64,000 nt of DNA, from NCBI GenBank assembly GCA_021405315.1, contig QWIH01000003.1:53833-117832 (forward strand). Direction: 5' to 3'. Under the pieces are notes generated by a model that ran no database searches, was not told the origin of the DNA, and saw nothing but the letters and a program-made list of their open reading frames with translations. Made by a program: the position numbers and the translations under genes. Below are positions 20,563 through 51,548 of the stretch, in pieces (the stretch's first letter is position 1; every line of letters begins with the position of its first letter). The stretch comes from Leptolyngbya sp. PLA1. GTDB taxonomy: Bacteria > Planctomycetota > Phycisphaerae > Phycisphaerales > UBA1924.

Positions 20563-20585
20563 GCGTCATGCTCCGTCGGCTGTGG

Positions 20586-23414: not shown

Positions 23415-23560
23415 GGCTCATCCTGTGCGAGGCGTCGCAGACCGAACAGAATCCGTTATCGGTCCGAATGCCGGGACGTAATCCTAGGCGACTCTATCGG
23501 CCTTTCGGGCGATCGGGGTCGGCGCGGTCCGGGGATCCTCGCATGTTTTCCGGCTTCGTT

Positions 23561-24049
23561 CTATCTCCCGATGCGTCCAACAGTTATGCCCGTCGCCGTC
23601 GTGCGAATGGGGGGCCCATCGCCCTGGGAGAACGCGATCTGAAGGTCCGCCAGATTCTCGTCGGTCTTGTCGCCGGCGGGGTCGTCGAGCAGGCTCAGGC
23701 GGATGAAATACGTCGGGCCGGCGGGCATCTTCTTGGCGAGTCCGGCGACAACATCGGGAGGGACCTTCCACTCGCGGATGACCTTCCCGTTCTTGGCCAC
23801 GAGTTTCAGGTCGAGGGTGCCTTCCGCGTAGATCGATGTTTCCGCGTGGTTGCGGGCGAACATCAGCAGCGTCAGCACCATGGTGTCCCGATAGCCGTTG
23901 CTGTCAGAGTCCTCCATGAAGCCGACGAACGGGAGTAGGTCGGTCGGCTGCGTCCCGGCGGGTGCCGGCGCGGGCCTTGGCTTCTGGGGCCCCGCGCAAC
24001 CGATGAGCGAGAGCGCGAGGACGAGGGACGTAAGTCGGATTGATCTCAT
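23561..24049 (-). CDS. small lipoprotein, candidate pilotin for the giant secretin
   Basis: A 162-residue lipoprotein with signal peptide and lipobox LSLIGC (lipidated Cys18), a Pro/Ala-rich linker, then a compact domain of about 115 residues (LPFVGFMEDSDSNGYRDT ... GTLDLKLVAKNGKVIREW ... YFIRLSLLDD) that looks like a beta-sandwich. It matches no pilotin family I can name. Its ATG overlaps the stop of the giant secretin gene (ATGA), so the two are translationally coupled. Lipoproteins that escort secretins to the outer membrane are often encoded with them. A pilotin or accessory role is inferred from this context only. Confidence 0.65.
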   Translation of the reverse strand: MRSIRLTSLVLALSLIGCAGPQKPRPAPAPAGTQPTDLLPFVGFMEDSDSNGYRDTMVLTLLMFARNHAETSIYAEGTLDLKLVAKNGKVIREWKVPPDVVAGLAKKMPAGPTYFIRLSLLDDPAGDKTDENLADLQIAFSQGDGPPIRTTATGITVGRIGR

Positions 24050-27000
24050 CGGCGCGGGTCCGTCCGTTCGGGCTCGGATTTGGGTGTCGCGGGAACTGGC
24101 GGTGCCGAAACCGGCGCGGCTTCTCCCCCTGTCTCCGGCCGGGAACGGGAGGGCTGCAATGGCTCGGACGCGGGCGACACGACCGCGGGGCTGGTAATGC
24201 CATTGCGGCGGTTGGTCTCCTCGATCTCCAGCCGGATTCGCTCCAGGTAGTCCTCGACCCGCGTGGGGTCCTCGAGCCGGTCGACCGTCTGCTCCGTCAC
24301 GTCCCGGATCAGTCCCTCCGGGCTCGCGGCCCCGCCCGGGATGACCCGAGGCGTGAGGATGACGAGCAACTCGGTCTTGTTGACCTCGTTCTTCTTGGTG
24401 CGGAACGGGAGCCCGATGATCGGGATGTCCCCGATGATCGGCACCTTGCTGTTGCGCTCCTCGTCGCTCGTCTGGATCAGCCCGCCGATCACCACGCTCT
24501 GCCCGTCCTTCACGGTCACAACCGTGTCGACGGTGCGCTTGGAGATGATCGGGGCCGTCTGGTCGCGGTTGATCTGCGTGGTGCGGCTGGTGAGCGCCGA
24601 AATCTCCGGGGAGACCTCCATCCGCACGTAGCCGTCGGCACTGATCGAGGGCGTGACCTTCAGGATGATGCCCGCCGGAACCCGCTGCACCTCGGAGATG
24701 ACCGACGTCCCGTTCACGCCGCCGAACTGGCTCCGCCCGGCGACGCCGATCTCATCCACAACGCTGATGGTCGCTTCCTTGTTGTTGTCGGCAAGCACCT
24801 GCGGGTTGCTCAGCACCTCGAGCTTTCCCTGCGCCTCCAGCGCGCGGATCAGCAGGCCGAAGTCCGAGGACGAAACCGAGAGGTTGGGCACGCCAAGGGC
24901 GGTGGCAACCCCGACGCCCGCCGCCGTCGAGCCGACGCGGTACGCCTCTCCCCCGAACGGCCCGACGTTGACGTCCATGCCCCATTGGTCGGAAGCGTCG
25001 ATGGTGACCTCCGCGAGCAGGACCTGGATCATGACCTGCGGGGGCGACGCATCGAGCTCCTCGACGATCTTCAGCACGGACTCCATGTACTTCGGTGACG
25101 TGGAGATGACGAGCTTGTTGCTCGAAAGGTCCCCCACAACCGTGACCTCTTCCTCGAGCCTCTGGAGCAGCGAGCCCGCCCGCTCGGCCCCCAGCGTGAG
25201 CCGGGCCTTGTCCGCCTCGCCCTGGAAATATGCCTTGAGCGTCGTTTCGATCTCTCCCGCCTTCGCGTTGCGAAGGTGGTACACACGACGCTCCCGCTCG
25301 CTGGCAGGGATGGAGTCCAGCTCCGTGACGACCTTGCGCACCAGGTCCAGGTAATCGGGAGTGCCCGAGACGATCAGCGTGTTCGTGCGCGAGTCCACGG
25401 CGATGGCGAGCTGCTGACGCTCGTCCGGCACCGGCGTCACCGCGTCCGTCGGGGGCTGGTTCTCCCCCTCCGCCTGCGTGCGGGCGGGGACAAGAACCAG
25501 CGCGTCTCCCTGCTGGCGAAGGTTGAAGACGTCCCGGAGCAAATCGCGCATCCGGCTCGCATCCGCGTTCAGCAGCCGGAACTTCTCGATCTTCCGCTGC
25601 CCGGCGCTTGACTGCTCGATGTCCTCGATCATCTCCGAGATCAGCCCCGCGAGCGATTCCGGGGCCGTGATCCACACCGCGTTCGTGCGGGCGTCCGCCG
25701 TCAGTGTCACCTGATCCCGCAGGGCACCGTCGATCTCCGCTTCCGTCGCTGCCTGGCCCCAGTTCTTCAGGTCGCTCCGCATGCTGTCGCGGAAGAACTG
25801 CAGCCGGGTGGCCTGCCGAGCCGCGATTCCCCGGCTGCCCCCGACGGGGCGGCCCGCGAGGACGTTCTCCACCAGCCTCACCACTTCGCCCGCGTTCGCG
25901 CTGCGGAGCTCGATGGACTTGATCTGCTGACGCTGGGTGACCTCGGCGGAATCGACCTTGCGCGCCAGCGCACGAATCTCGACGAGATCCGCCTCGGTGC
26001 CCGTGACGATCAGCGCGTTCAGCCGCTCGTTCGCCACCACGCGGACGGCGTTCTGCCCGCGGCGCTGGTTCTCTCGCTCCACGTACGCCTGCTCGATCGA
26101 CTGCGCCGCCTCCGTCGCCCGGGCTCGCGTGAACTGGATGATGTCGCTGCGGCTGCCCGCCTCCAGCCTCGCCACGTCCTCCGTGAGGGCCGACACGAGC
26201 TCCCGCACGACCTGCAGGTTCTCCTGGCTGCACGCGACGATCAGGAGGTTGCTCGATGGCTCCGCCTCGATCGTGAACGCGTCCATCGGGTTGCGGACCG
26301 ACCCCGCCTGGGCCGCGGCCTGCAGCCGCTCCCGCATCAAGCGCTCGATCCGTGGTGCCAGCTGACGGACGTCTGCTCCCTCCACCGGCAGGACATGGAT
26401 ACCCACGGAGTACGCCGTCCGCTCGCCGTCAAGGGTCTTCAGCAGCCCCTCCACGATGGCGAAGCTCTTCTGGCTGGAAGAGACGATGAGCGCATTCGTG
26501 CGGATGTCCGTGCTGATGATCAGCGCGTCCTCGGGCCGGTCACTGCCCGCCTGGCGACGCTGCGCGAAGATGTCCCGGAGCACCGCCGTCACGCGGTCCG
26601 CCGCCGCAAACCGGAGCGGGAAGATCCGCACCTGGTTCGCGGCGGACGCCGCCTCGACGTCGAGCTGCTCCACCATCGCCTTGACGACCGCGAGGTTGGC
26701 CGGGCTCCCGATGACGATGAGCGCGTTGAGGTTCTCCTCCGCTGTGATCACAAGGCCGGTGACCGGTGCGAACAGGTCGGACTCGATGATGCCGGCCGAG
26801 ACCGGCTCCTCCGGCCCGCCCTTCTCGATTCCGGGTCGAAGGGACGCCTGCGGCTCCGGCGCGCTGATCGAACGGCCCTGGTTGACCATCCGCAGGCGGC
26901 CGAACTGACGCTGCAGGCCCATGGCCTCCGGCGTCACCGCGGTGCCTCGAACCAGCACCTCCTGGAGACGACGGGCCATGCCCGCGGCGTCCGCGTACTT

Positions 27001-30000
27001 CATCGGGATGATCAGCGGCTCCACCCACTTGCTCGCCGCGTCACTGTCCAGTTCCTTGGTCAGAACCTCGACCAGCGCCAGAGCCTCCTCTCGGCCCGCG
27101 GCGATCATCGTGTTTGTGCGCTCGTCCACCGTGATCGCCACGTCCCCCGCGAGGGCCTGCCCGGTCGCGGTCGGGGGAAGGCCCCGCCGCTGCGTTCCCG
27201 GAAGCCGCCGGAGCGCCTCGCCCTGCTGGAACAGCGTGTCGATGACGGCCTTTACGCGGGTCGCGGAGGCGTTCTCCAGCGGGAAGATCCGCATCACCAC
27301 CGAGTCGCCGATCGGGAGCGTGTCGAGCAGCTTCACGATCTCGCGGATCGCGTCGATGTTCCCCTGCGACGACGCGATGATGAGCGTGTTGGTCTGGTCG
27401 TCGCCGATGAGCCGGATCGGCCTCGTCAGGTCGACCGCGTCGCGGGGCTGATCGATGCCGTTCTTGACCAACTGCAGGCGGCGGACCTGCTCCGCCAGCG
27501 GGCCCGCGGGGCCGGAGGTCGTGACCGCGGACGCCGCGTCCGTCGGCCTCAGCATGCTGGTGAGCGTCGCGGCCACCGCGCGGGCCGAGGCCGTGCGCAG
27601 CGGGACCACCGCCAGCTTCTGCTCGGACTCCACCGGGGCCGTGTCCAGCGATCTCACCAGCGATTCCACGATCCGACCGTCGCCCGGCGCGGCGACGATC
27701 GCCAGCGCCCGGCGAGTGCCCATCACGCTGATCTGAACAGGCTCACTCACGATCCCCGGCCGGTCCGCCTGCTGCGGCCGGGTCAGCCCCATCTCCTCCA
27801 GCATCCGCCGGATCGTCGCGGGATCGTTGTTCACGATGTCCACGATCGTCACGTTCTGACTCATCATCGCCGGGCCGGGCTCCTGCCCGCTCGCGGGCGC
27901 GTCCAGCTCCGCGATGACGGCCTTGATCTCCTCCAGCAGGCGGGCGCTGCACGCGATGACCAGCGCGTTGTTCGTCCGATCCACCTCAACCGCGAGCGTC
28001 TCCCCCTGCGCCCGGGCCGTCTCCGTGAACGTTGAGAGCAGCGTCTGACGCAGCCGCCCCGCCGAGATGGTCTGCAGCCTCACGACGTGGGGCTGCACGC
28101 GCCCCACTTCGCCCTGCTGCTCCAGCGTCTCCGCGAGGGCCTTGATCTGCGCGAACTTCGCGTCGTCCGCGCGAACGATGAGCGCTCCGCTCGTGTCGTC
28201 GCCCACGATCATGACGCTCCGGGGACCGTTCGGCCTCTCGAGCTTGTTCAGGTACATCTCGCGGATCGTGCTCGCAACCGCGGATGGCTTGCCGTTGGTC
28301 AGCGCGATGATGCGCGGCTGGGGCATGTCGCCGAAGCCCGAAACATCAAGCTGCTTGACGATGTCGCGGATCCGGTCCATCTCCCGGCGCCCGGCAAAGA
28401 CGATCAGCGAGTTCGTCTGGCTCTCCGCCGAGACGCTGGGCACACCCTCGGCGTCAACCAGCACCGTGGCTTCCGGGCGGTCGCCCGGACGTGTGGGCTG
28501 GTTGCCCCGCGTGTTGCGCGCCTGCGACTGGCGGAGCTGCTCCTCGAGCGGCGCGCGAAGCCCGTCGTTCAGCGCCCGGGCCACGCTCGTTGCATCCGCG
28601 TGCTCCAGCGCAATCACCGCGAGCTGTCGGGTCGTGTCGTACTCGGGCGTGTCGAGCTTCGCCAGCAGTGCCCGGATCCCCTCCCACATCGACTTGTCCG
28701 CCCGGATCACCAGCGAGTTCGAGAGCTTGTCCGGGAGGATGGTCACGTTCCGCGCGGCCGGGCTCGCGGCCTCGGTCGCGTACCGCCCGTAGAACACCTT
28801 CAACGCCTCCGCGGCCTGCGTCGCGCTCGCATACTCCAGCTTCACGAACTCCGTCGTCCGCTCCTCCGCCGGCGCCTGGTCCAGCTCCCGGACGATCTTC
28901 TCGATCTCCTCCATCTGGTCGGCGGGGGCGTACACCGTCAGCGTGTTGTCCTGCCGGGAGTAGTCGATGCCCGCCTCTGGCTCATTCGGGTTTCGCGGCC
29001 TGGCGCGCAGCATCTGTTCCACGGTGTACGACACTTCGCTGGCTTCCGCCGCGGCCAGCCTGAACCGCCGGAACACCAGCCCGCTCCGCACGGGCTCCTG
29101 GTCGATCTTCTTGATCTGCTCCATCGCGATCGCGATGGCTTCCTTGCTCCCCGTGAGCAGGAGCGAGTTCGAGCGGACGACCGGCGTCACGGTCACCTTC
29201 ACGTTGGGGGGAAGCGCCGTGCGGAGCGCCGTCGCCACCTCCTGCGCCCGCGCCGTGGTCAGCCCCACGGTCTCGATGTTCGCCTCCTCCGCACGCGGGG
29301 CCGCGTCGAGCTGCGCGAGCACCGACGACACCTCAGGGAACACCTCCTGCGGCGCCGAGATGATGACGGAGTTCGTCGCGGGCTGAGGCGTGATGATCAC
29401 CCGCTCGTCGCCCCGCGTGTCCCGGGCGAACATCGCCCGCAGCGAGTTCGCCACGTCGTTCGCGACGCCGTTCTTCAGCACGATGACCTCGATGCGCCGG
29501 TCCTTGCCACCGTCCGGCTGGTCGATCTGCGAGATCAGCTCCCGGATCGTCGCCATGTCATCCTCGCCCGCGGAGAGAAGGATGACATTGCCATCCGCCG
29601 ACCCCATGACGCTGACGCTGGCGGCGTCCACGCCCTGCGCTCTGGCTCGGTCCGCGAAGAACTGGCGCAGCGTGCTCGCGGCGCGGTCCGCGCGGGCGTG
29701 GCTGAGCGTGATGGACGCGACCTGGTTGCCCGGTCCGCCGTCCGGGCCGCCCTTGTCGAGCTGCTGGATGGACCGCACCGCCTCCTCCACTCGCTCGCCC
29801 TTGCCCACGAGGATCAGCGAGCGGTTGGCACGGTCGATCTCCACGGTCACGGCATCCGGGTCGGGCCCCCGCCACGAGCGCCAGCCCGGAGTGACGAACG
29901 CCTGCCGCAGAACGGTCTGGAGAGACCTCAGGTCGGCGGACTGCACCTTCACACTGCGGATGACCAGCGCGGACTTGTCCGTCGCGGGCTGGTCCAGCGT

Positions 30001-33000
30001 CTGGATGACGCTCTCGGCGTTCGCGAGGGCCTCGCCCTGCCCGATGAGCAGCATGCTGTTCGTGCGCTCATTGGCCTCGACGTAGACCTTCTGGCTGTCG
30101 TCCTCGCGCGGGGCGCCCCACCACACGTTCACGGACTCCCAGCGCAGCTCGTCCAGCACGTTGCGGACGGTCTGGAAGACCTCCGTCACTCTCGCGTGCT
30201 TGAGGGGCACCACCTTGAACTGCATATCGCGTGAGGGCGCCGGAGTGTCAAAGGTCTTGACCAACTCCTGCACCTGCGCGAAGTCGTCATCGCTCGCCGC
30301 GACCAAGAGCGTGCTGCTGCGCTTGTCCCCCACCACCGCGACGCGGGAAGCCGTCCGCGCACCGGGCCGCGCGGAGATCGCAGCCCGGTCCGCAAAGAAC
30401 TTCTGGAGCGACTGGGCGACCGCCGACGCGTCCGCCCGTTCGAGCTTGATGGAGCGAACCGGGGCCGTCCCCGTCTCGGCCTGGTCCACCTGCGCCACCA
30501 CGCCCTTCACCTGCTCGATGTCCTCCTTCGAGGCACGCACGATGAGAAGGTTCGAGCCGTCCTGCGCGGAGATGCGCACCCGGTCCTTCTTCGCCGGGTC
30601 GCGACCGATCACGATCTCGTCCACGATCTGCCGCACCGTCGAGGGCGCGGCGTTCCGCAGCGTGATCATCGCGAGCTCGTCACCCCCGGATTCCAGCGAG
30701 ACATCCGCTTCCGCCAGCAGTCGCGCCACGTCCGTGTGCTGGGGCTGGCTCGCGGTCACCAGCAGCGTGTTCGTCCGGTCATCCGCGATGAACCTCGCCT
30801 GGGGAAGGTCATTCCCGCCCGCTCCCTGACGCTGCGCATCAAACAGCGTCTGCAGCGTGCGGCTGACGTCCGCCGCCTTCGCGTGCTTCAGTTCATACCG
30901 GTGGATCGCCAGCCGGTTCGTGACCGGGCTCTGGTCCACCGTCTCGATCAGCCGGTCGATGACCGGGAGCGAGTCACCGGGGGCCGCCACGATGACCGAA
31001 GCGCCCGCGGGGTCCATGATGACGCGGATCTGGGACGGATCGATCCTCCCGCTGACCGCGCCGTCAGGCCCCTGAACTTCGATCTCCCATGCTCGAACGC
31101 GGCGCGCCTGCTGACCCGCGGGTGCCGCGGTGAACAGGTCCCGCAGCGCCGCCATGGCCCGCGGCGCCGTGGTGTTCACGAGCGGGTAAACCTTCACCGC
31201 CATCTTCGCCGTAGAGCCGAGCTGCGTCAGCGATCCGATGAGCTCGCCCACCACCGCGAAATCCGCGTCGTTCGCAAGAACGACAAGTGCGGACCCCGTG
31301 GGGTCCGGGGTGATGGAAACCGGGCCGGTCAGGCCACCCGGATTCGTCGCGGAAACCCGCCCGATCTGCCCCACCGTCTGAGAGACGATCTGCGCCAGCG
31401 TGGCGGAATCGATCGCGGGCGGGATCGTGACCAGCCTCACCCCCGTCGGCTCCGGCGGCATCTGGCTCTGGAGCTGCATCGCGAGCGAGGCCAGACGGTC
31501 CGCCGTGCGCGGCGAGCCCACGATGAGCAGGGAGTTCGTCGCCTTGTCCACCGCGATGGTCACGGTTGGCTCGGGCTCCGTCGCCCTGCCCTCCGGCACC
31601 TTGTGCTCCGGCTGCGCGGCAGCCTCGGGCGCTGCGGGGGCCGGTGGCTCGAGCGCCGCACCGGCCTCGGGCTCCGTCATCGCCATCACCGCCGCAGCCG
31701 CAAACGTGTGGGGCGTCCACCGGGCCGGGGGCAGCCAGGTGCGGGGCTTCTCCGCATCCGCCGGAGGCTTCTCCCTGGTGCGGCGCAGCAACTCTTCCGC
31801 GGAGATCACCTCCACCTTCATGCCCTGCTGCTGCTCCAGCACGCGCCGGAGCGTCTGCGCCATGAGTTCCGCATCGGCCCGGCTGCGGTCCAGCGGAACG
31901 CTGCGCATCTGGCGCGACGACGCGAGCGCCGCCGCGTCCAGCGACTTGATGAGTGATTCCGCCGTTTCGAGCTGCGCGTCGGTGCCCCGGAGGATGAGCG
32001 AGTTGCTGGAACTGTCCACCCGCATGACAGGGGGGGGCTCGGGAGACTGCGAGTCCTTGAAGACCGCGTCCAGGTTCGCCGCGAGCTGCGCCGCGTCCGC
32101 GTTGGCGAGCGTCACGACGCGGATGGCGCGCCGGCTGCCGGCGTTCTCGCCGGGCTCCACATCCAGCGAAGCGATCATCTCCTCCGCCAGATCCATGAGT
32201 GAGCGAGGCCCGCTCACGACGAGCGCATTCAGCCGCGTCTCCGCCAGCACCCGCACCTTCAGAGGCTCCGGATTGCCGCCGAGGCGAGAGATGACCTGCG
32301 CCCGCATCCAATCCGGCATCCGGTCGAGCGAAGACTCGCGGGCGAGCACGCCCTCCAGCACCGGCGCGAGCGTCTCGGCCCGTCCGTGCTTCAGCGGGAT
32401 CGTCCGAACACCCATGCCCTCGCGGTCCACGGACTGGTCGAGGTTCTCGATGAGCTTGGCCGCGCGGTCGAGTTGCTCCGAGGTCCCGACGATGACGACG
32501 GTGTTGCTCGCGGGCTCAGGGGTGATGGTCGCCGGCGTCGCGCCCGGCTTGTCCTGCGCGGGGAGCGTGCCCCTCAGGGCCCCCGCGATGCTCGCCGCCT
32601 CGCCCTTGCTGAGCCTGAAGACCCGAACCTCCAATGTGCTCGATGTGCTCTGCTGGTCCAGCGCACGGACGATGCCGTCCGCCACGGACATGATCTCGCG
32701 CGGCGCCGAAATCACCAGCGTGTTGCTGCCCGTGTCGCTCGTCACCTCCACCTGCGTGGAAGCCTCCGGCAGCGGTGCGCCGCTCGGGTCGCGCAGCTCG
32801 CGGGCCCGCTGGCTCAGCACGCGCTGCACCAGCGGCATCAGGCGGTCCGCCCTCGCCGCGGTCAGGGCATACAGCTTCATCTCCGTCGGCGCCGCCTGAG
32901 GCAGCCCGTCCAGTCGCTTCAGAACGTCGTCCACACCCTCGAAGATGTCGCTCGGACCGCTGACGACCAGCGTGCGGCTCACCGGCTCCGTCGACACCGT

Positions 33001-35658
33001 GATGGGCGCATTGCTGGACTTGCTCGCGAGCGAGCCCCCCGAGACCAGTTGCCGGATCGTGTTCGCGACCGATGCGAGGTCGGCCCGCTCCACCTTGTAC
33101 GTCCGCAGCGAGAGGTTATCCGCGAGCTTCTGCTGGTCCAGGCTCTTCACGAGCTGCTCGAACCCGGCCATGCGCTTCGCCGGCGCGTCAACGATCAGGG
33201 AGTTGGTCGCGCGGTCAGCCCTCACCACGACCTCGCGGGGCTGCTTCAGGTCCGGGCGGGGCTGCCGGGTTCGCGGATCGATCGGCATCGGCGGCTCGGG
33301 GTACATCTGGTCGATGGTCTGGGCCAGTTCCTCGGCCCGGGCCACCTTCAGCGGGTAGATGCGGATCTCCCGCCCCTCCGCGTCCATCTGCTGCGCCTCG
33401 TTCAACCCCTCGATGATCGTCTCGATCTCCGGCAGCGTGTCCGGGTGCGCGGAGACGATCAGCGTGTTCGTCGCCGGATCCGAGTCGACCCACACCGGCT
33501 GGCGAGTGCGCTGCTCCGCCGGCCTCGCGTCAAAGCTCCGCTGAATCACCAGCGCCACGTTCGCCGCGTCCGTGGACTTCAGCCGGAACAGCTTCAGCGG
33601 GGGACGATCCGCGCCCTGCCGGGTGTCCAGGTCTCGCACCAGTGCCTCGAGCACCGCGAGCTGCTCCGGCCTCGCTCCGATGATCAGCGTGTTCGTCTGC
33701 TCGATCGCCTCGAACGCCGGCTCGGGGCCGCCGGGCCCCCGGAGCGTCTGGCTGGACTTCACAAGGTCGGTCAGCGTTGCCACCACGTCGCTCGCCTTGG
33801 CCTGCCTGAGTTCCACCATCCGCAACTGGCGCAGCGCCGGGTCATCCGCGTCGAGCTCCGCCACCAGGTCGCCCAGGAGCGCCACCTGCGCCGGCGTGCC
33901 CCGCACGAGCAGCACCTTCGCCTCGTCGATGGCTTCCAGCACAGGCTCCGTGTACGCCGATCCGTCCGTCGGCGTGAGCATGGGCCGCGCCAGCCGGGAC
34001 AGCCGCCCCGCGAGCACGCTCGCCGCCGTCTTCTTCACGTCAAACCGTCGGACCTCCTGCACCACGGACACCGCTTCCACCTGCGTCAGAATCTGCGAGA
34101 ACGCGGCGAGCCCAGCGCGCGAGCCGAGCAGCGTCGCCGTCCCGGACTCGGCCTCAAAGCTGATGGTCACGGGATCGGTCGCGGCCTTGCCGCTCTGCGC
34201 GTACAGGTCCTGCGCCTTCTTGAGCGCAGCCACGGCACCCTCACGCCCGAGCCTCACGAGCTTGACGTCGCGCTCCTGCGCGTCCTGAGTGTCCAGCGCC
34301 GCGATCATCTGCTGATACGACTCAACATCCCCCGAGGGCCCCACGAGGATCACGCTCTTGCCGTCCGGCCCCGCACTGATCCGCATGGACTGCATCTGCC
34401 TCGGAGTCAGCAGGCGGGTCGCGATGGACTCGATCACGCTGGCGGGAAGGTGCTTCAGGCGCACCGAAACCGCCCGCCGCTCCGGCCTCACGCTCGCGGG
34501 CTCTCCCACCGTCCCGCCATCACTGCGGGACGCCGCGGGGTCCATCTCGCCAAGGACCGCCGCGGCCTGCGCGATCTTGTCCGCCGGCCCTACCACCGTC
34601 ACCTTCAGCACCTCGGGGAGGGCGAGCACCACGGGGCGCGTCTTCGGGTCGTCCTTGGAGAACAGCGCCGTCAGGCGCGCCGCCGCGGCGTCCGCGGTGA
34701 TCGTCGCCAGCGCGAAGGTCGCCAGTTGCCCCTCGCCCGCCTCCGTCGCCGGGACATCCAGCAGCCCCAGCACCTCCTCGACCGTGCGGATGCGAGCCTC
34801 GGGCCCCACCGCGATGATGGAGTTCGTGCGCGGATCGGCGACCAGGTTCAGCCCCGCGACCTGGGTGTCCTGCACCGTGCGCTGACTGCCGTCCTTATCG
34901 ACGATGACGGTCTTCTGACGCTCGCCGACGAGGCCCTTCAGGCTGTTGAGGATCGTTTCCGCCTGTCCATACTTGAGCGGGAAGAGCTTGAACGACGCGT
35001 CCGCGGGCTTGCGGGCGTCGATGGACTGCACGATCTCGCGGATGCGCTTCACCTGCGCCGCCGTGTCCACCACGATCAGCATGTTCTGCGTGGGGATCGG
35101 CAGCACCCCGCCGAAGGACCCCACCAGTTGCTTGACCTGCTCCGCCACCTGCTCCACGCGGGCGTTGTCCAGGGGAATGCTCACGGTCACGATCTGGTCC
35201 GGCGAGAGCCGCGCCAGCGAGGCCGCGTCCGCCGGCACCGCGATCGGCTTCTTCGACGCGTCCTGCAGCGTCGCGAGGTACAGATACTGATCCTGCTTCC
35301 GGAGGTGAACGCCGAACCGCGCCAGGTTCAGGTTCAGGATGCTGAGAGCATCCGCGAACGAGTACCGGGCCGAGCTCACGAACGTCACCGTGCCCTGAGG
35401 GATCGCCGCCTCGAAAATGATCGGAACGCCGCCTTCTCGGGCGAAGACATCCAGCACCTGGTCGACGGGCGCGTCCTTGAACGTGAACCCGATGTCGTCA
35501 CGGGGCTGCGCCGGTGCCGCCGCCGGTGCGGCGCCCGCCACCACCGGGGCAGCGACGGGCGGCGGAGGGGACGCCTCCTGCGCCCAGACCGAAACGGGCA
35601 GGCCGACCACCGCGACCATCGCGGCTACCGCCACGCGCTTGCTTCTCTGCTGTGACAT
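24046..35658 (-). CDS. gspD: giant type II secretion secretin (GspD-like) with about 40 N-domains
   Basis: A 3,870-residue protein; usual GspD is 600-750. Order: signal peptide (1-26, SVWA^QE), Pro/Ala linker, N0/STN domain (about 55-130, IGFTFKDAPVDQVLDVFARE), then about 40 tandem secretin-N-type domains of 80-90 residues (156-3538), then the secretin core (3539-3775). The core has VMIQVLLAEVTID, LSNPQVLADNNKEATI, VTVKDGQSVVIGGLIQ and KVPIIGDIPIIGLPF ... TELLVILTPRVI. A Pro/Ser-rich tail of about 95 residues ends it. The core should form the outer-membrane channel of the T2SS. The ATG at 35658 has GGAGG 6 nt upstream; an ATG 18 nt earlier lacks this. It follows the GspM/C fusion gene after 96 nt and its stop overlaps the lipoprotein start. 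Composition matches its neighbours, so it is neither foreign nor recently duplicated at DNA level. Confidence 0.95.
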   Translation of the reverse strand: MSQQRSKRVAVAAMVAVVGLPVSVWAQEASPPPPVAAPVVAGAAPAAAPAQPRDDIGFTFKDAPVDQVLDVFAREGGVPIIFEAAIPQGTVTFVSSARYSFADALSILNLNLARFGVHLRKQDQYLYLATLQDASKKPIAVPADAASLARLSPDQIVTVSIPLDNARVEQVAEQVKQLVGSFGGVLPIPTQNMLIVVDTAAQVKRIREIVQSIDARKPADASFKLFPLKYGQAETILNSLKGLVGERQKTVIVDKDGSQRTVQDTQVAGLNLVADPRTNSIIAVGPEARIRTVEEVLGLLDVPATEAGEGQLATFALATITADAAAARLTALFSKDDPKTRPVVLALPEVLKVTVVGPADKIAQAAAVLGEMDPAASRSDGGTVGEPASVRPERRAVSVRLKHLPASVIESIATRLLTPRQMQSMRISAGPDGKSVILVGPSGDVESYQQMIAALDTQDAQERDVKLVRLGREGAVAALKKAQDLYAQSGKAATDPVTISFEAESGTATLLGSRAGLAAFSQILTQVEAVSVVQEVRRFDVKKTAASVLAGRLSRLARPMLTPTDGSAYTEPVLEAIDEAKVLLVRGTPAQVALLGDLVAELDADDPALRQLRMVELRQAKASDVVATLTDLVKSSQTLRGPGGPEPAFEAIEQTNTLIIGARPEQLAVLEALVRDLDTRQGADRPPLKLFRLKSTDAANVALVIQRSFDARPAEQRTRQPVWVDSDPATNTLIVSAHPDTLPEIETIIEGLNEAQQMDAEGREIRIYPLKVARAEELAQTIDQMYPEPPMPIDPRTRQPRPDLKQPREVVVRADRATNSLIVDAPAKRMAGFEQLVKSLDQQKLADNLSLRTYKVERADLASVANTIRQLVSGGSLASKSSNAPITVSTEPVSRTLVVSGPSDIFEGVDDVLKRLDGLPQAAPTEMKLYALTAARADRLMPLVQRVLSQRARELRDPSGAPLPEASTQVEVTSDTGSNTLVISAPREIMSVADGIVRALDQQSTSSTLEVRVFRLSKGEAASIAGALRGTLPAQDKPGATPATITPEPASNTVVIVGTSEQLDRAAKLIENLDQSVDREGMGVRTIPLKHGRAETLAPVLEGVLARESSLDRMPDWMRAQVISRLGGNPEPLKVRVLAETRLNALVVSGPRSLMDLAEEMIASLDVEPGENAGSRRAIRVVTLANADAAQLAANLDAVFKDSQSPEPPPVMRVDSSSNSLILRGTDAQLETAESLIKSLDAAALASSRQMRSVPLDRSRADAELMAQTLRRVLEQQQGMKVEVISAEELLRRTREKPPADAEKPRTWLPPARWTPHTFAAAAVMAMTEPEAGAALEPPAPAAPEAAAQPEHKVPEGRATEPEPTVTIAVDKATNSLLIVGSPRTADRLASLAMQLQSQMPPEPTGVRLVTIPPAIDSATLAQIVSQTVGQIGRVSATNPGGLTGPVSITPDPTGSALVVLANDADFAVVGELIGSLTQLGSTAKMAVKVYPLVNTTAPRAMAALRDLFTAAPAGQQARRVRAWEIEVQGPDGAVSGRIDPSQIRVIMDPAGASVIVAAPGDSLPVIDRLIETVDQSPVTNRLAIHRYELKHAKAADVSRTLQTLFDAQRQGAGGNDLPQARFIADDRTNTLLVTASQPQHTDVARLLAEADVSLESGGDELAMITLRNAAPSTVRQIVDEIVIGRDPAKKDRVRISAQDGSNLLIVRASKEDIEQVKGVVAQVDQAETGTAPVRSIKLERADASAVAQSLQKFFADRAAISARPGARTASRVAVVGDKRSSTLLVAASDDDFAQVQELVKTFDTPAPSRDMQFKVVPLKHARVTEVFQTVRNVLDELRWESVNVWWGAPREDDSQKVYVEANERTNSMLLIGQGEALANAESVIQTLDQPATDKSALVIRSVKVQSADLRSLQTVLRQAFVTPGWRSWRGPDPDAVTVEIDRANRSLILVGKGERVEEAVRSIQQLDKGGPDGGPGNQVASITLSHARADRAASTLRQFFADRARAQGVDAASVSVMGSADGNVILLSAGEDDMATIRELISQIDQPDGGKDRRIEVIVLKNGVANDVANSLRAMFARDTRGDERVIITPQPATNSVIISAPQEVFPEVSSVLAQLDAAPRAEEANIETVGLTTARAQEVATALRTALPPNVKVTVTPVVRSNSLLLTGSKEAIAIAMEQIKKIDQEPVRSGLVFRRFRLAAAEASEVSYTVEQMLRARPRNPNEPEAGIDYSRQDNTLTVYAPADQMEEIEKIVRELDQAPAEERTTEFVKLEYASATQAAEALKVFYGRYATEAASPAARNVTILPDKLSNSLVIRADKSMWEGIRALLAKLDTPEYDTTRQLAVIALEHADATSVARALNDGLRAPLEEQLRQSQARNTRGNQPTRPGDRPEATVLVDAEGVPSVSAESQTNSLIVFAGRREMDRIRDIVKQLDVSGFGDMPQPRIIALTNGKPSAVASTIREMYLNKLERPNGPRSVMIVGDDTSGALIVRADDAKFAQIKALAETLEQQGEVGRVQPHVVRLQTISAGRLRQTLLSTFTETARAQGETLAVEVDRTNNALVIACSARLLEEIKAVIAELDAPASGQEPGPAMMSQNVTIVDIVNNDPATIRRMLEEMGLTRPQQADRPGIVSEPVQISVMGTRRALAIVAAPGDGRIVESLVRSLDTAPVESEQKLAVVPLRTASARAVAATLTSMLRPTDAASAVTTSGPAGPLAEQVRRLQLVKNGIDQPRDAVDLTRPIRLIGDDQTNTLIIASSQGNIDAIREIVKLLDTLPIGDSVVMRIFPLENASATRVKAVIDTLFQQGEALRRLPGTQRRGLPPTATGQALAGDVAITVDERTNTMIAAGREEALALVEVLTKELDSDAASKWVEPLIIPMKYADAAGMARRLQEVLVRGTAVTPEAMGLQRQFGRLRMVNQGRSISAPEPQASLRPGIEKGGPEEPVSAGIIESDLFAPVTGLVITAEENLNALIVIGSPANLAVVKAMVEQLDVEAASAANQVRIFPLRFAAADRVTAVLRDIFAQRRQAGSDRPEDALIISTDIRTNALIVSSSQKSFAIVEGLLKTLDGERTAYSVGIHVLPVEGADVRQLAPRIERLMRERLQAAAQAGSVRNPMDAFTIEAEPSSNLLIVACSQENLQVVRELVSALTEDVARLEAGSRSDIIQFTRARATEAAQSIEQAYVERENQRRGQNAVRVVANERLNALIVTGTEADLVEIRALARKVDSAEVTQRQQIKSIELRSANAGEVVRLVENVLAGRPVGGSRGIAARQATRLQFFRDSMRSDLKNWGQAATEAEIDGALRDQVTLTADARTNAVWITAPESLAGLISEMIEDIEQSSAGQRKIEKFRLLNADASRMRDLLRDVFNLRQQGDALVLVPARTQAEGENQPPTDAVTPVPDERQQLAIAVDSRTNTLIVSGTPDYLDLVRKVVTELDSIPASERERRVYHLRNAKAGEIETTLKAYFQGEADKARLTLGAERAGSLLQRLEEEVTVVGDLSSNKLVISTSPKYMESVLKIVEELDASPPQVMIQVLLAEVTIDASDQWGMDVNVGPFGGEAYRVGSTAAGVGVATALGVPNLSVSSSDFGLLIRALEAQGKLEVLSNPQVLADNNKEATISVVDEIGVAGRSQFGGVNGTSVISEVQRVPAGIILKVTPSISADGYVRMEVSPEISALTSRTTQINRDQTAPIISKRTVDTVVTVKDGQSVVIGGLIQTSDEERNSKVPIIGDIPIIGLPFRTKKNEVNKTELLVILTPRVIPGGAASPEGLIRDVTEQTVDRLEDPTRVEDYLERIRLEIEETNRRNGITSPAVVSPASEPLQPSRSRPETGGEAAPVSAPPVPATPKSEPERTDPRR
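25045..35193 (-). repeat. array of about 40 diverged secretin-N domains inside gspD
   Basis: Counted by eye. Each unit begins with a strand of the form V-x-PLK-x-A-x-A (VRVFRLSKGEAASIAGAL, FKVVPLKHARVTEVFQTV, VRIFPLRFAAADRVTAVL). It then has a helix and variable loop, the hairpin D-x-x-TN-(S/T)-LIV (DPATNTLIVSAH, DRATNSLIVDAP, DIRTNALIVSSS) and a helix ending in LD. Units 3-6 and 31 are the least typical. Unit 15 carries a Pro/Ala/Glu-rich insertion of about 75 residues (about 1290-1365). Units are clearly diverged from one another, so the array is old. Confidence 0.9.
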
Positions 35659-35754: not shown

Positions 35755-36765
35755 CTATCCCTTGGGCTTGCGTGCGGCGAGGGTGCTCCCAACCGACACG
35801 TCGAACTTCTCCCCCGCGATTTCCACAACCGCAAGTTCTCCCGCGCCGTCGACCAGCACGGCGTCGAGAACCTGCCCGCCCCTCAGCACCGTGAGGCGAT
35901 CCCCCGTGCGCAAGTTCACGAACAGGGCGCTCAGGCCGCCCCGCCCCGACGCCACGCCCGCGAGCCGCCAGTCTTCGTACGGCGCAAACGCCCGCGGGGC
36001 CGGCGCGGGAGTTGCCTGCCCCTCCGCCGGGGCGGCGGCGATCACGACCGAGGGCCCCGCCTCCCCGGGGCCGCCCGTCGGAGCGCGGAACAGGTTCCGC
36101 GACGCAATCGCTCGCCACGTGGACTCATGCTCCGCGCTCGCCGGAGTGAGCTGCGGGGCACCTTGATCGGCCTTCGAGGCCAGCGCCGGGGCGTAGATCG
36201 TCGCCACGTCCACCCGAAGATCGAACCGGTCCCGTTCCTTTCCGATTGGCCTCAACGAAAACGCGTCGATCCGGTGCACCCAAGGCTGGTCCTGGAGCAT
36301 CCCGATCGCGGCGACCGCCTGCTCGAGCGTTCCCGTCCCTCGGATGGAGCCCCGCAAGACCTGGAAGTCCGGCTGCCGACGCAGCGCACGCTTCAACTCA
36401 ACCGAGACGCCCTTGGCATCCAGCACCGGGCTCATGACCTCCACCGGCTGCCCGTGCTCCACGATCACCTTGTCCAGCCCCGCGGTGCTCCCCACCCGGG
36501 TCAGGCCATCCCGGAACCGGGCGCTCACAATGTCCAGCTCACTCCCCAGCAGCCCCGCTCCAACCGCGGCCCGACGCCGGGTCAGTTCCCGCTCCTCGCT
36601 CAGTTGGGTCTTCAGCCTCGTGATGGCGTCCTGGGCCGTCCGAATGTCCGCCTCGATCAGCCGGCGCGGGCCCAGATATACCTTCTGGAACGCCCACCAC
36701 GCGCCACCGGCGACCAGGGCCACCAGCGCGATCCGCGCCCAAGGCTTGGTCAGAAGCGCGTTCAT
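35755..36765 (-). CDS. GspM/PilO-like protein fused to a GspC/PilP-like HR domain
   Basis: A 336-residue inner-membrane protein. A short cytoplasmic start and one helix (about 10-27) lead to a coiled coil (35-65) and a ferredoxin-like GspM/PilO domain (about 90-195, containing LEQAVAAIGMLQDQPWVHRI). After a Pro/Ala linker, residues 235-336 have IASRNLFRAP and LAGVASGRGGLSALFVNL, then TGDRLTVLRGGQVLDAVLVD and a final beta strand pair. This is the pattern of the GspC homology region or PilP, which binds the secretin N0 domain. The protein would therefore do the jobs of both GspM and GspC. Its ATG overlaps the gspL stop (ATGA). No separate gspC was found. Confidence 0.75.
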   Translation of the reverse strand: MNALLTKPWARIALVALVAGGAWWAFQKVYLGPRRLIEADIRTAQDAITRLKTQLSEERELTRRRAAVGAGLLGSELDIVSARFRDGLTRVGSTAGLDKVIVEHGQPVEVMSPVLDAKGVSVELKRALRRQPDFQVLRGSIRGTGTLEQAVAAIGMLQDQPWVHRIDAFSLRPIGKERDRFDLRVDVATIYAPALASKADQGAPQLTPASAEHESTWRAIASRNLFRAPTGGPGEAGPSVVIAAAPAEGQATPAPAPRAFAPYEDWRLAGVASGRGGLSALFVNLRTGDRLTVLRGGQVLDAVLVDGAGELAVVEIAGEKFDVSVGSTLAARKPKG

Positions 36766-38306
36766 CGGCCTGCCCCCTTCGACTCAGGGGCCGACGCCGG
36801 GTCTTCCGCCGCCGGGCGCCCGGCCGGAGTCTGCATCGTGGTCGTCAGGCGGAAGGCGAACTTGTCCGGGGTGTCGGCCCCGCGGCTCTCGACGGTGTAG
36901 ACCTCGCCCCGCAGCACGCGATCACGCAGGTCCGAAGAAACCTCCCGGTCCTTCACCTTGCCGGAGAAATCGAAGATGGCTGTCAGGGGCCGCTTCCATT
37001 GACCGTCCGGATAGCCCTTCTTCGGCGCGTACTCCGGCCTCGCGCTGGCACGACCCGAAAGATCGTCCAGCACCGCGGTCCCCGGCGTGGGCCAGACCCG
37101 GCTCAGGCCGTCGAGGTGAGCCACCCAGTCCACCCGCGACGCCCGCCACTCTTCAAGGTGGCTCGTGCGAGCATGCTCGACGAGGAACCCCGCGTACTCA
37201 GTCTCCAGCGCCGCCCGCTCGGACTTGGCGAGCGTCAGCGTCCGCCTCAGCCCGCTCAGGCTCTGGTCGGCCACGACGTAGAACAGGCTTCCCAGAACGA
37301 TGAGGCCCAGCGAGCCGATGAGCACCGCCTTCCGGGCCAATGCCGCCCGATCGGGGGCCTTCCGTGGGTTCAGGAAGTCCAGCGATGCCCGCCCCGCCGC
37401 CTCTTCGAACAGAAGCCCCAGGAGGGCAACCAGCGATCCCTGATACCGCTCGGGCACTCCGTCAGGCAGTCCCTGTCCCTGCAAGCCTCGCACCGTCTCC
37501 GGCATACAGGACAGGCCCTGGGCACACCGCTCCGCGAGTGCTCGCGCCTCGGGCCCCTCTCCGAGCACCGCCACCGAATCCAGTTCCACGTTCCTCGCCC
37601 CGACGTGACTCATCCACGTTCGCCGGGCTTCCATCGCGACGCGGGACGACCAGGCCTCCGTGTCCTCTGAGGACTCAGGCTCGAGATCGATGGCGCGCGA
37701 TGCCCCAAGCCCCCCGGACTCGATGACCAGGAACTCAACGCCACCCGGCGTCGTCCGGATCCCTAGAACCGGGCCCCCGCGTCGGTCGTGAATATCTGAG
37801 AGCAGCACCGCCGCCCCCACACTCCCCACCGTCAGCCTCGCCGGCTTGATCCCCGCCGCCGTCGCCACCTCGTTCCACCAGTGCTGCCGCTCCGCTGGCA
37901 TCGCCGCAGCCAGCACGGCCCCGCTCGATCCGGCGGGCGGCACATAGTCGATCGTCGTCCCCTCCAAGGGCAGCGCGAGTTGGCGGATCATCTGCAGCCG
38001 CACGATGCCGGCCAGATCCTCCGCCGACACCGCGCCCTGGGGCGCCGTCGGAACCTGAAGGTGCTTGATGACGCACTCGTGCCGCGGGACCACCAGGACC
38101 ACACGGCCCCGGGACGTCCCCAGCGTCCGAACCTCGCTCGCCAGCCACGCCCCAACCGCCGCCGCGTCTCCCTGGCCCACGTTCGTCGGCCGCGACGCCA
38201 CGTGCCAACCCAGGACGCGCACCCCGCCCGACGAGACTTCTCCCGTCAGCATCGCCGCACCCCAGCGATCCACCTCAATCGCCGTAATGACTCTGGTCTT
38301 TGCCAT
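36762..38306 (-). CDS. gspL: type II secretion protein GspL (actin-like/PilM-type plus membrane anchor)
   Basis: A 514-residue protein. The cytoplasmic part (about 1-325) has an actin/PilM-like fold (TRVITAIEVDRWGAAMLTGE, ARLTVGSVGAAVLLSDI, LDSVAVLGEGPEARALAERC). One membrane helix (about 333-352, AVLIGSLGLIVLGSLFYVVA) is followed by a coiled coil and a periplasmic domain. GspL links the ATPase GspE to the inner-membrane platform. The ATG at 38306 overlaps the gspK stop as TGATG. An ATG 21 nt upstream is possible but its GGGGAG sits directly against the codon. The next gene overlaps by 4 nt. Confidence 0.85.
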   Translation of the reverse strand: MAKTRVITAIEVDRWGAAMLTGEVSSGGVRVLGWHVASRPTNVGQGDAAAVGAWLASEVRTLGTSRGRVVLVVPRHECVIKHLQVPTAPQGAVSAEDLAGIVRLQMIRQLALPLEGTTIDYVPPAGSSGAVLAAAMPAERQHWWNEVATAAGIKPARLTVGSVGAAVLLSDIHDRRGGPVLGIRTTPGGVEFLVIESGGLGASRAIDLEPESSEDTEAWSSRVAMEARRTWMSHVGARNVELDSVAVLGEGPEARALAERCAQGLSCMPETVRGLQGQGLPDGVPERYQGSLVALLGLLFEEAAGRASLDFLNPRKAPDRAALARKAVLIGSLGLIVLGSLFYVVADQSLSGLRRTLTLAKSERAALETEYAGFLVEHARTSHLEEWRASRVDWVAHLDGLSRVWPTPGTAVLDDLSGRASARPEYAPKKGYPDGQWKRPLTAIFDFSGKVKDREVSSDLRDRVLRGEVYTVESRGADTPDKFAFRLTTTMQTPAGRPAAEDPASAPESKGAGR

Positions 38307-39850
38307 CAGCGTCCGCTCGTTCCCCATCTCCCCGACCGTCGATCCTTCAACGCCTTGGCTCCGCCCCGCGACCCGGAAGCAGCGTCCGGCACACCCTCAG
38401 GTGCCCGAGCCTCCCCAACTTCTGCCGGACGGCTGGACGTCACCCCAGGTACAGGACGGCTCCCCAGAGAACGGGGAGCACCAAGCGATGTCGGCATATC
38501 AAATACTCCCGCCGGCACATTTTGTTTCCCCTCCTCCTCCAGCGGCCGCGCCCGCTCACCCCCCACGATCGGGGCAGCGGGAGATTCCGACTCCGGCAGG
38601 TCGTTCGGCTGAGGGCCCCAGACGGCCGCCGAAAGGAACGTCACATCACGAAGGTACGCGACTCGCACCTGGGGTGAACTCGCGTCGACGACCGCCTCCC
38701 AGACCAGCCGGGCCTGGGGGGTCCACTCTCCGCCGGTGACCGCATCGTCCCGCGTCGAAGGCCCGATCTCTGCCGAGACTCGGACTCGCCACACCAGGCT
38801 CCGCGTCGTGAGCCAATCCACTGCCTCTACGAACTGCTCCGGCGTCAGTACACCCTCCCGAACAGGCCACGCCAAGCTGCGCCGGCGATCGGCGCTCAGA
38901 CTCGTACGCACTTCCGCGAGGCGCTGCGCCGCCTCCACGCTCACCCCGGGCAGGCACGACAGCACCTCGGGCGGCGCGAGGTTGATGTCCACGCGCCCCG
39001 GCAGGTACTGATCGTCAGCGGCAGTGAGGACATCCAACACCTCGCCCCACTCCTCCGGTCCGGCGCCGGCCCCGATCATCGCCTGCACGAGCGCCCCAGC
39101 CGTCGTCGCTTCCGACTTGAGCGCCGCCTCCGCCGCCTTCAATGCCCCCGCCGAAAGCCTCGATCCCAGTTCGTCCCCGATCTCCTTGCTCCAACCGATT
39201 CCCCGGTGCAAACGGAACTGACCGGCGTGCTCCCCCGAGGCCGACCCGCGTCCAAGCCCCCCCTGCACGTTCGGGTCGTAGGAATGCGTGGTGATCCACA
39301 TCCCGAACCCCGACGGCGTCTCGGTGGCCTCCGCCTCGGACTCCTCCGCCGCCGGACGGGAGCCGTAAAACTCCGATGCGGTCATCGCCCCCGGCCGAAC
39401 GAGCTCTTCCGGCGCCTGCACACCGGCGCCCCTGGCCGCAACGATCCGGGCCGCGAGATCCTCGCTTCCCCCCGGGAGCTTCGCGAGCATCGCAGCGTCC
39501 GCTCGGTTGACGTCGAGCCGGCCCATCTCGCTCGTCGTAGCACCGGGCCCGCCCCCGATCAGTCGCACGATGCCCTTGTGCGAGCCGTCGTCGAACAGAA
39601 CCCACTCCCGGGTGAGGGTCGGTTGCTCGCCCTCCAGCATGGCCGCCCGCTGGGCTTCGAGTTCGTGCTGCACCCCCTGCAAACCGGACCAGGCCAGCGC
39701 CCGCAGATGCTCCCGTTCCATGCTGACGCGGGCGCTATCCAGCCGGGCCTCCACCCGCACCGCCATCGCGCTGCACACAAGCACCGACACCGCGATCACC
39801 ACAAGCGTGATGATCAGAACCGTGCCGCGCGTCCGGACGCCCGCCTTCAC
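38306..39850 (-). CDS. gspK: minor pseudopilin GspK
   Basis: A 514-residue pseudopilin. The leader RTRG^TVLIITLVVIAVSV lacks a Glu at +5, as is usual for GspK, the tip subunit. The large globular part contains helix-hairpin-helix-like turns (GRLDVNRADAAMLAKLPGG, RVDINLAPPEVLSCLPGVS) typical of the GspK SAM-like domains. A Pro/Ser-rich region of about 100 residues at the C-terminus is extra. GTG 39850 was chosen because it overlaps the gspJ stop (GTGA) and has AGGAGGG just upstream. It is longer than the usual 300-330 residues. Confidence 0.85.
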   Translation of the reverse strand: MKAGVRTRGTVLIITLVVIAVSVLVCSAMAVRVEARLDSARVSMEREHLRALAWSGLQGVQHELEAQRAAMLEGEQPTLTREWVLFDDGSHKGIVRLIGGGPGATTSEMGRLDVNRADAAMLAKLPGGSEDLAARIVAARGAGVQAPEELVRPGAMTASEFYGSRPAAEESEAEATETPSGFGMWITTHSYDPNVQGGLGRGSASGEHAGQFRLHRGIGWSKEIGDELGSRLSAGALKAAEAALKSEATTAGALVQAMIGAGAGPEEWGEVLDVLTAADDQYLPGRVDINLAPPEVLSCLPGVSVEAAQRLAEVRTSLSADRRRSLAWPVREGVLTPEQFVEAVDWLTTRSLVWRVRVSAEIGPSTRDDAVTGGEWTPQARLVWEAVVDASSPQVRVAYLRDVTFLSAAVWGPQPNDLPESESPAAPIVGGERARPLEEEGKQNVPAGVFDMPTSLGAPRSLGSRPVPGVTSSRPAEVGEARAPEGVPDAASGSRGGAKALKDRRSGRWGTSGR

Positions 39851-40494
39851 GCGCCCTCCTTCCACGCACTCACCGGCCCGTCCGGGATCGTAATGACCCG
39901 GGTGCGGTCCGCCGGCCTCGCGGGGCCGTCCTCCCGTCCCACGAGGTCGATGTCATCGGGCGGCACCGCCCGCGCCGCCGCAGGGCCCGCCCCGAACCAC
40001 ACGGACACCTCCACCGCCAGCGGCAAAGCCCTGGCACTCCCCGAATCAAACGACTCCCGCCACTCCGCCCCGTCGTGATACCTGAACCGGACCAGTTCCA
40101 GCCCAGTCGCCAGCACCTCCGCCGTGGCTCCCGGCCCCGGGATCGTCCGTCCGGTAAGTTGTCCCGTGGAGGCGCTGAACACAAACTCGCTGCCCGTTGC
40201 CTCAGAGGCACGACTGCTCGGATCAAGCCCTACTCCCCTCGCCCGAACCCGCAGGCTCGACGAGTCCCCCCGCAGCCCGGCGCCGCCAGCCCCGTCCGCC
40301 GCAAACGTCGTCGCCAGGTCCCGCTCCAGCCGCGACCACATCGCCGCCAGCCCGTCGCCCCGCGCCCCCACCGTGTCGAGCTGCTCGCGGCGCTCGAGCA
40401 GGGTCCACAGGAACCCGAAGACCGCGGCGGAGAGCGCCACGATCAGCACGATCGCCAGCAGGGTCTCGAAAAGCGTGAAGGCCCGTCGCCTCAT
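39847..40494 (-). CDS. gspJ: minor pseudopilin GspJ
   Basis: A 215-residue prepilin-like protein with leader MRRRA^FTLFETLLAIVLIVAL, including Phe+1 and Glu+5, processed by a prepilin peptidase not found in this window. The globular part (GFLWTLLERREQLDTV ... GLELVRFRYHDGAEWRESFD) fits GspJ, which forms the pseudopilus tip with GspI and GspK. The ATG overlaps the gspI stop (ATGA). Assignment rests on order G-H-I-J-K and fold pattern. Confidence 0.85.
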   Translation of the reverse strand: MRRRAFTLFETLLAIVLIVALSAAVFGFLWTLLERREQLDTVGARGDGLAAMWSRLERDLATTFAADGAGGAGLRGDSSSLRVRARGVGLDPSSRASEATGSEFVFSASTGQLTGRTIPGPGATAEVLATGLELVRFRYHDGAEWRESFDSGSARALPLAVEVSVWFGAGPAAARAVPPDDIDLVGREDGPARPADRTRVITIPDGPVSAWKEGA

Positions 40495-41673: not shown

Positions 41674-41676
41674 CAC

Positions 41677-42192: not shown

Positions 42193-42265
42193 CAGGAAAC
42201 CTCCCACATCGCCATTGTACGCCCCGCGGCCCGGGACGTTGCTCGCCCCGCCACGGAAATCCGCC

Positions 42266-51280: not shown

Positions 51281-51548
51281 GTACGACCTCCGTTCAGAAC
51301 CCCAGCGAATGACTGTGCCGCGACCGCGGCGGAGAGACTCTTCGAACCCAGAAGTTACCACAAAAACCGAACACTGTCCAACAAATCATCGCGAGCGGTA
51401 AGTCGTGCCCAAACACACCGGCGCTCAGAACGCCTCACGACCCCCTCATACTACAATAACTTCGGCCGGTCCCTGCCGTCAAGCACAGACTTCAGAACCA
51501 GTGACTTAGCCCTCCCCCGTATCCGGGGATCAACGCGGAGTCAGGACC

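Follow-up and report, generated by a model that had tools for sequence, protein, structure and literature searches.

The window analysed here, 64,000 nucleotides of contig QWIH01000003.1 of Leptolyngbya sp. PLA1 (Planctomycetota, Phycisphaerae), encodes a giant GspD-type secretin of 3,870 amino acids (aa), in which an N0 domain is followed by 40 N-domain units and a single secretin core. The gene is intact, and we think it rather probable that its product is the secretin of a type II secretion system (T2SS) whose N0 and units would stack as about 41 rings, forming a tube of about 100 nm that carries exported proteins. The secretin gene, its parts and the lipoprotein gene next to it are the following:

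24046..35658, minus strand: giant GspD-type secretin, 3,870 aa (ATG at 35658, stop at 24046)
35578..35658, minus strand: signal peptide, residues 1-27 (by eye from the sequence)
35269..35490, minus strand: N0 domain, about residues 57-130 (matches to GspD/XcpQ N-terminal fragment structures; alignment A4)
25030..35205, minus strand: array of 40 N-units, residues 152-3543 (PF03958 matches and iterated unit profile)
31444..31932, minus strand: unit 15 with a long Pro/Ala-rich insert, residues 1243-1405 (unit profile)
28855..30243, minus strand: units 21-26, residues 1806-2268, six beta-alpha-beta-beta-alpha units (AlphaFold2 model)
24340..24843, minus strand: secretin core, residues 3606-3773 (PF00263)
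23561..24049, minus strand: small lipoprotein, 162 aa, with a lipobox Cys (modelled as an Ig/Fn3-like beta-sandwich; constant neighbour of expanded secretins)

The frame comprises 3,870 codons and is intact, as a preliminary description of the window had stated, with no internal stop; it lies on the minus strand, which that description did not mention. The Pfam search that it had called for found 34 separate stretches of Secretin_N (PF03958; 1,052.7 bits summed), where about 10 had been named as the lower limit of the claim, and a single Secretin (PF00263) core at residues 3606-3773 (protein E 8.6e-48). An iterated profile built from the giant's own units gave 41 matches tiling residues 152-3543. 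Two of these, at residues 1243-1299 and 1311-1405, were read as the halves of a single unit 15 split by a Pro/Ala-rich insert, so that the array has 40 units, in agreement with the earlier manual count of about 40; two relatives (P0002 and P0003) gave exactly 40 profile matches each. Together, the matches to the two Pfam families and to the unit profile bear out the proposed extended N-domain array with a normal core. Residues 57-303 matched the GspD/XcpQ N-terminal structures 4e9j, 5ngi and 4ec5 (2.2e-9 to 5.2e-9), and the match to 5mp2 spanned residues 57-295; judged by sequence, this region is a T2SS-type N0 followed by N1 and N2.

The NCBIfam model of GspD (TIGR02517) scored 1,072 bits on the giant, against a cut-off of 351.35, a value inflated by 18 matched stretches; the best of them aligned residues 3341-3774 with profile positions 148-591. 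The PilQ and SctC models of NCBIfam also exceeded their cut-offs, through summed repeats. As a control, six GspDs of ordinary length (L092, L093, L094, L096, L098 and L099) had 3 units each after merging of matches (L098 had 4 raw unit-profile matches and 3 after merging). L095, a GspD relative of ordinary length, had 5 units, and the remaining short secretins had 1-5. With its 40 units and 3,870 residues, the giant departs from the ordinary GspD plan of three N-domains after N0 in 600-750 residues, and is thus a GspD variant rather than an ordinary member. It shares with GspD (TIGR02517; structures from E. coli, Vibrio, Klebsiella and Pseudomonas) the signal peptide, N0, the fold of the N-domains and the core, and its locus resembles that of GspD in containing gsp genes with homologues of E, F, G and K. 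It differs in having 40 N-units against 3 in the six ordinary GspDs tested, and in that no known pilotin family was found alongside it. Opposite gspD, an antisense open frame of 1,089 aa extends from 32386 to 35655 on the plus strand.

Selection, spread and unit orthology

The units are well diverged, as had been remarked before: the best pair within the giant is 46% identical and the median best identity is 38%. That an assembly or a gene model has joined separate genes, or that repeats have been miscounted, is extremely improbable. Contig ends do cut some relatives, but the clusters P0002 and P0003, separately assembled and 95% identical to the window giant, have the same 40 units, the single-contig genomes G090, G211 and G302 carry intact giant frames, and the ratio of nonsynonymous to synonymous divergence (dN/dS) is low throughout the protein. 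Compared with its counterpart in G005, dN was 0.027 and dS 0.68 over 3,866 codons (dN/dS 0.04). An assembly artefact is therefore unlikely, and the earlier rejection of an assembly repeat holds. The per-unit dN/dS was 0.12 at most and the secretin core gave similar values (dN 0.035, dS 0.82). Every unit of the window giant is under purifying selection.

The preliminary description had missed that the giant belongs to a subfamily spread over the whole clade, in which the identity of the units is conserved, with up to 63 units and a lipoprotein gene as constant neighbour. A large protein collection was searched for candidates whose length was 0.55-1.75 times that of the query; of the 1,841 proteins scored, 445 were relatives with an E of at most 0.001. 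The 120 that were listed, query included, had 3,580-4,897 aa and 36-51 units, with 97 of them at 50 (34), 46 (27), 41 (16), 40 (11) or 39 (9) units. Their database names, where given, were hypothetical protein, secretin N-terminal domain-containing protein or type II secretion system protein D; such giants are already in databases, mostly unnamed or generically named. Families f17 and f19 had 13-17 units and f12 had 22-23, while most of the other uncut ones had 31-52. The maximum of 63 units was reached in G101 (identical to G571, contig C18; loci L066/L195), in a frame of 6,169 codons. The range in Phycisphaerae was 12 (one record) to 63. Pirellulales records and one Thermoguttaceae bacterium had 6-9 units, a Gemmataceae record had 14 by one profile and 13 by another, and metagenome-assembled genomes (MAGs) labelled Verrucomicrobia had up to 47.

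In a gene tree of 93 secretin cores, based on a short stretch of sequence, a branch with support 98/89 parted 78 secretins with at least 6 units from 15 with 3-5, and none of the latter (0/15) fell within the expanded branch. The tree omits ten loci removed by thinning, and loci with fewer than 3 units or with tails shorter than 280 residues; it includes 18 named loci added by hand to 8 that were already in, holds two genes twice (L094/L140 and L143/L197), and several of its unit counts are lower bounds because the loci are cut. The window giant has at least 6 units, an adjoining lipoprotein gene and a core in the separate branch, the features by which we define an expanded-N subfamily. Other members (L048, L053, L191, G101 and others) share its core branch, its alignable units and the same adjoining lipoprotein, and differ in having from 6 to 63 units.

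Giants were also found in MAGs titled Verrucomicrobia or Akkermansia (L123-L126, L131, L191-L193), an assignment that is the label of the record; among Verrucomicrobia-class genomes, 10/188 matched at 1e-60. In the Verrucomicrobia-labelled L191, the last 20 units and the first two or three were collinear with those of three Phycisphaerae giants of families f15/f16, and the cores of Verrucomicrobia-labelled giants were nested within the Phycisphaerae f15/f16 clade (support 100/97). This collinearity and nesting suggest horizontal transfer to Verrucomicrobia; for the whole set of MAGs so titled, horizontal transfer or mislabelled bins are the likely explanation.

Each of the 40 units of the window giant had its reciprocal best match, strictly in the same order, in five relatives, one of 40 units, one of 46 and three of 50. 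Compared with the window giant, the 46-unit relative had one additional block of six units, two of the 50-unit relatives had the block of six plus one block of four, and in the third the surplus of four was split 3+1; a 38-unit relative had two units fewer. The simplest reading of these alignments is that the ancestral array had about 50 units and was later shortened in the window's lineage. With L048 as the 50-unit reference for unit pairing (31 comparisons), 39/40 units of the window giant were collinear, as were 43/43 in two f2 giants, 24/26 in a shorter f2 protein and 34/36 in f4. The remaining families matched chiefly at the C-terminal units 42-50. Shuffled unit orders scored far lower for the full-length L048 comparisons; in the most distant ones, overall collinearity was about what chance would give, and nothing but the C-terminal run recurred. 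The last unit paired with the last unit in 31/31 comparisons. In the ordinary GspDs L099 and L092, N1 paired with unit 1 of L048 and N3 with its last unit, indicating that the expansion sits between N1 and N3; by these reciprocal best matches to L048, unit 1 of the window giant would correspond to N1 of ordinary GspD and unit 40 to N3. Unit comparison thus points to one-to-one orthologues in a fixed order within close families, to relatives that differ by whole blocks, mostly in mid-array, and to C-terminal units that stay alignable, as do the first units in some lineages.

Compared with its relative L065, the 63-unit protein had nearly all of its extra units between units 22 and 46, a region in which units are up to 85% identical to one another. 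By its sequence, this protein appears to have undergone recent internal duplication, an expansion caught in progress. Such duplicates, together with the span from 6 to 63 units inside one branch of the core tree, favour an account that we nevertheless find not very likely, in which replication slippage grew the array and each added ring became structurally needed without any selection on length. Counts spread by accretion of this kind are difficult to reconcile with the clustering of 97/120 listed proteins at five values with one-to-one orthology between their units, or with the confinement of all 3-5-unit secretins to the other side of the tree.

The companion lipoprotein

The lipoprotein gene lies directly downstream of the giant gene. 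The lipobox Cys was invariant in 32/32 aligned members (alignment A5, comprising a hand-chosen set of 31 loci plus P0124; the short match L054 was dropped). The protein had no Pfam or NCBIfam family match. Its predicted structure (pLDDT 91.5, pTM 0.80) is an Ig/Fn3-like beta-sandwich, for which Foldseek gave nothing at E 0.001 or lower and no clear PDB relative was found.

A profile of this family matched just downstream of 75/76 loci with at least 10 units, a set that holds some genes twice (L131/L196 and L056/L136); 11 of the positive loci took no part in profile building, and a crude lipobox scan found 50/76 of the same loci. Among 48 further loci (36 hand-chosen from 80 named, plus 12 others; L180, with 7 units and cut, was excluded), the lipoprotein was present in 11/11 with at least 6 units and in 0/37 with fewer. 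One of these loci, L143, represents a gene (also listed as L197) that had been used for profile building, and several of the 37 negative loci have short flanks. At the level of genomes, 34/61 relatives had an expanded core (frames of at least 1,567 codons, some cut by contig ends), two of the 36 core matches (G053 and G057, 741-742 codons) being excluded from this class. The lipoprotein was present in 34/34 of them and lay beside the expanded gene in 33/34. The 27 relatives devoid of an expanded core gave weak matches (31-43 bits) in 4 cases (G044, G045, G053 and G056), which were not near secretin matches among the matches listed. The window's genome contained one strong match, at the giant locus.

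The pilotins of T2SSs (GspS, AspS, PulS) are small lipoproteins encoded beside the secretin; AspS and PulS are named in the titles of 5zdh and 6hcg. The lipoprotein described here is likewise small and secretin-adjacent, and it differs from these proteins by its beta-sandwich model and its lack of family matches. No known pilotin type (GspS, AspS, PulS or PilF) was among the listed matches of the lipoprotein, though kinship may nonetheless exist. The likely role of the protein is that of a pilotin or an array-assembly factor of the expanded subfamily, and it provides a handle on assembly.

Stacked rings or tethered units

An AlphaFold2 model of units 21-26, built with 22 sequences (mean pLDDT 79.5, pTM 0.49), predicted six ordinary beta-alpha-beta-beta-alpha N-domains. 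Its leading Foldseek and VIA matches were secretins of T2SS, type III secretion systems and pili, the closest solved structures, which speaks against the novel fold considered in the preliminary description. Neighbouring pairs and triplets of units superposed on GspD/XcpQ N-domains at about 4 Å. The linkers between units were 9-10 residues long at 30/39 junctions of the window giant and at 51/61 junctions of the 63-unit protein, and exactly 9 residues long at 8/8 junctions of four ordinary GspDs. Because these linkers are short and mostly constant and the neighbours of each unit are conserved, stacking is favoured over loose beads; these two properties do not prove rings.

If each N-unit makes a ring, the window giant would have, with N0, about 41 stacked rings, through which exported proteins would pass from the platform in the inner membrane to the gate in the outer membrane. 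At 2.5-4 nm per ring, an assumed range, the tube would measure about 100-160 nm, and a 15-mer would contain 600 N-units and weigh about 6.2 MDa. The preliminary description had put the possible length at 80-120 nm. Such a tube may be used where the planctomycete inner membrane has withdrawn from the outer membrane, with the number of units acting as a length setting. More generally, we propose tentatively that Planctomycetota, and Verrucomicrobia, likely as horizontal recipients, may build the longest known envelope-crossing protein channels, homo-oligomeric tubes of 40-63 stacked N-rings and more than 100 nm whose length would be set by unit number and whose assembly would depend on a new lipoprotein family.

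Conversely, only the conserved C-terminal module might form rings on the core, with the middle units forming a polymer, flexible or packed side by side, that would bind ligands in the periplasm or keep N0 tethered to the inner membrane over a variable distance. We regard this as unlikely. It would explain why the last units always pair with each other in the comparisons with L048, and why a C-terminal run (units 42-50) is matched in most of them and the middle is variable, and it agrees with the lack of a confident global arrangement in the six-unit model. A tether would also suit the planctomycete periplasm, which can be greatly enlarged and varies in width according to the excerpted text of PMC5394234. 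It accounts poorly, in contrast, for linkers that are mostly within one residue of those of ring-forming GspD along the whole array, for the strong constraint on all middle units, and for the superposition of adjacent units on GspD domain pairs.

Several observations weigh against the stacked tube. Longer spans of the six-unit model superposed with a root-mean-square deviation of about 14-40 Å; given this and the pTM of 0.49, the placement of more than 2-3 units relative to one another is not predicted. Nine of the 39 linkers of the window giant deviate from 9-10 residues, by lengths of up to 23, and linkers reach 90 residues in relatives. Besides the giant, the window's genome has five secretin genes in frames of 702-1,133 codons, with 0-4 units detected in each product (four of them are truncated at the 5' boundary of the locus retrieved), as well as a gene for a flagellar L-ring protein. 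A uniformly ~100 nm periplasm is therefore unlikely, which weakens the enlarged periplasm offered earlier as an explanation; the giant would rather serve sites of wide membrane separation, or reach across obliquely. The candidates for GspC, GspL and GspM at the locus were chosen by position, with a weak PilO-like signal for one and no profile confirmation. Among family-f1 genomes, 15/37 had no match at 1e-50 (two of these being 71-76% complete), so that the secretin system appears dispensable in this lineage. In G060, the 46-unit secretin L091 lacks an adjoining lipoprotein gene, and a copy lies instead by a second, contig-cut core. Relatives labelled Pirellulales and Gemmataceae have only 6-14 units. 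These two groups belong to the better-studied class Planctomycetia, and it is in a member of this class, Planctopirus limnophila, that an enlarged periplasm has reportedly been described. Finally, a Phycisphaerae isolate is presented as devoid of crateriform structures in the portion of PMC8882080 available, and the literature consulted yielded no value for the width of the Phycisphaerae periplasm.

Secretins average 555 +/- 151 residues (PMC4827864, excerpt). The nearest precedent is PilQ of Thermus thermophilus, a 13-mer with six rings (N0-N5), 350 Å long and 125 Å wide, with an inner diameter of about 70 Å at N5; its authors call the six rings unusual and tie them to a wide periplasm (PMC5745081, excerpt). 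Six is the largest ring number that we met in the literature, as far as that excerpt goes (PMC5745081), and a search of open-licence papers turned up no account of a secretin carrying tens of N-domains. PilQ resembles the giant in having additional N-domain rings, those of the giant being predicted; it has about 7 times fewer of them and is a type IV pilus/DNA-uptake secretin, whereas the giant lies in a T2SS locus. Across one class, arrays of 31-63 units are met repeatedly, and MAGs bearing the label of a second phylum have arrays of 43-47. If the units form rings, no known secretion conduit would come near this one in length, and the series of 3, 6-9, 12-17, 22-25 and 31-63 units would be a natural ruler for studying how envelope machines match the intermembrane distance, a question that the variable planctomycete periplasm makes pressing. 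If they do not, the N-domain has another use.

The T2SS locus and neighbouring genes

The gsp operon context described previously was recovered, with genes E, F and G above the profile cut-off and K barely above it:

35755..36765, minus strand: GspM/PilO-like (weak) inner-membrane protein, 336 aa, with a Pro-rich C-terminal part
36762..38327, minus strand: 521 aa protein in the GspL position (from position and size)
38306..39865, minus strand: GspK-like protein, 519 aa, with a helix-hairpin-helix motif (PF03934, 24.9 bits, cut-off 24.2; HHH_3)
39847..40494, minus strand: GspJ-like pseudopilin (below the Pfam cut-off)
40491..41072, minus strand: GspI-like pseudopilin (from position and N-terminal sequence; no Pfam match)
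40948..41676, minus strand: GspH-like pseudopilin (N-methylation motif; below cut-off)
41677..42207, minus strand: GspG major pseudopilin (PF08334, 9.8e-24)
42266..43459, minus strand: GspF platform protein (PF00482, 1.9e-48)
45146..46825, plus strand, opposite to the others: GspE ATPase with an MshEN domain (PF00437, 1.2e-127)

Relatives of the protein at 35755-36765 were present upstream of 34/48 expanded secretins having enough sequence. Its Pro-rich C-terminus may resemble the HR region of GspC, and the protein (minus strand) may be a fusion of a GspM/PilO-like part with this HR-like C-terminus. The 519 aa GspK-like protein at 38306-39865 seems large for a GspK. Another protein with an N-methylation motif, pseudopilin-like, is encoded at 50213-51361 (minus strand).

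Downstream of the lipoprotein gene, positions 19345-23414 (minus strand) hold the genes of a 2-oxoglutarate dehydrogenase E1 and a 2-oxoacid dehydrogenase acyltransferase (E2). Opposite the E1 gene lies an antisense open frame of 1,024 aa (20568-23642, plus strand), which had no Pfam match and is probably a base-composition effect. Farther away are a gene for a PilZNR-like protein, slightly below its cut-off (55541-56725, minus strand), and one for an aromatic amino acid lyase (17663-19174, minus strand; PF00221, 1.5e-166).
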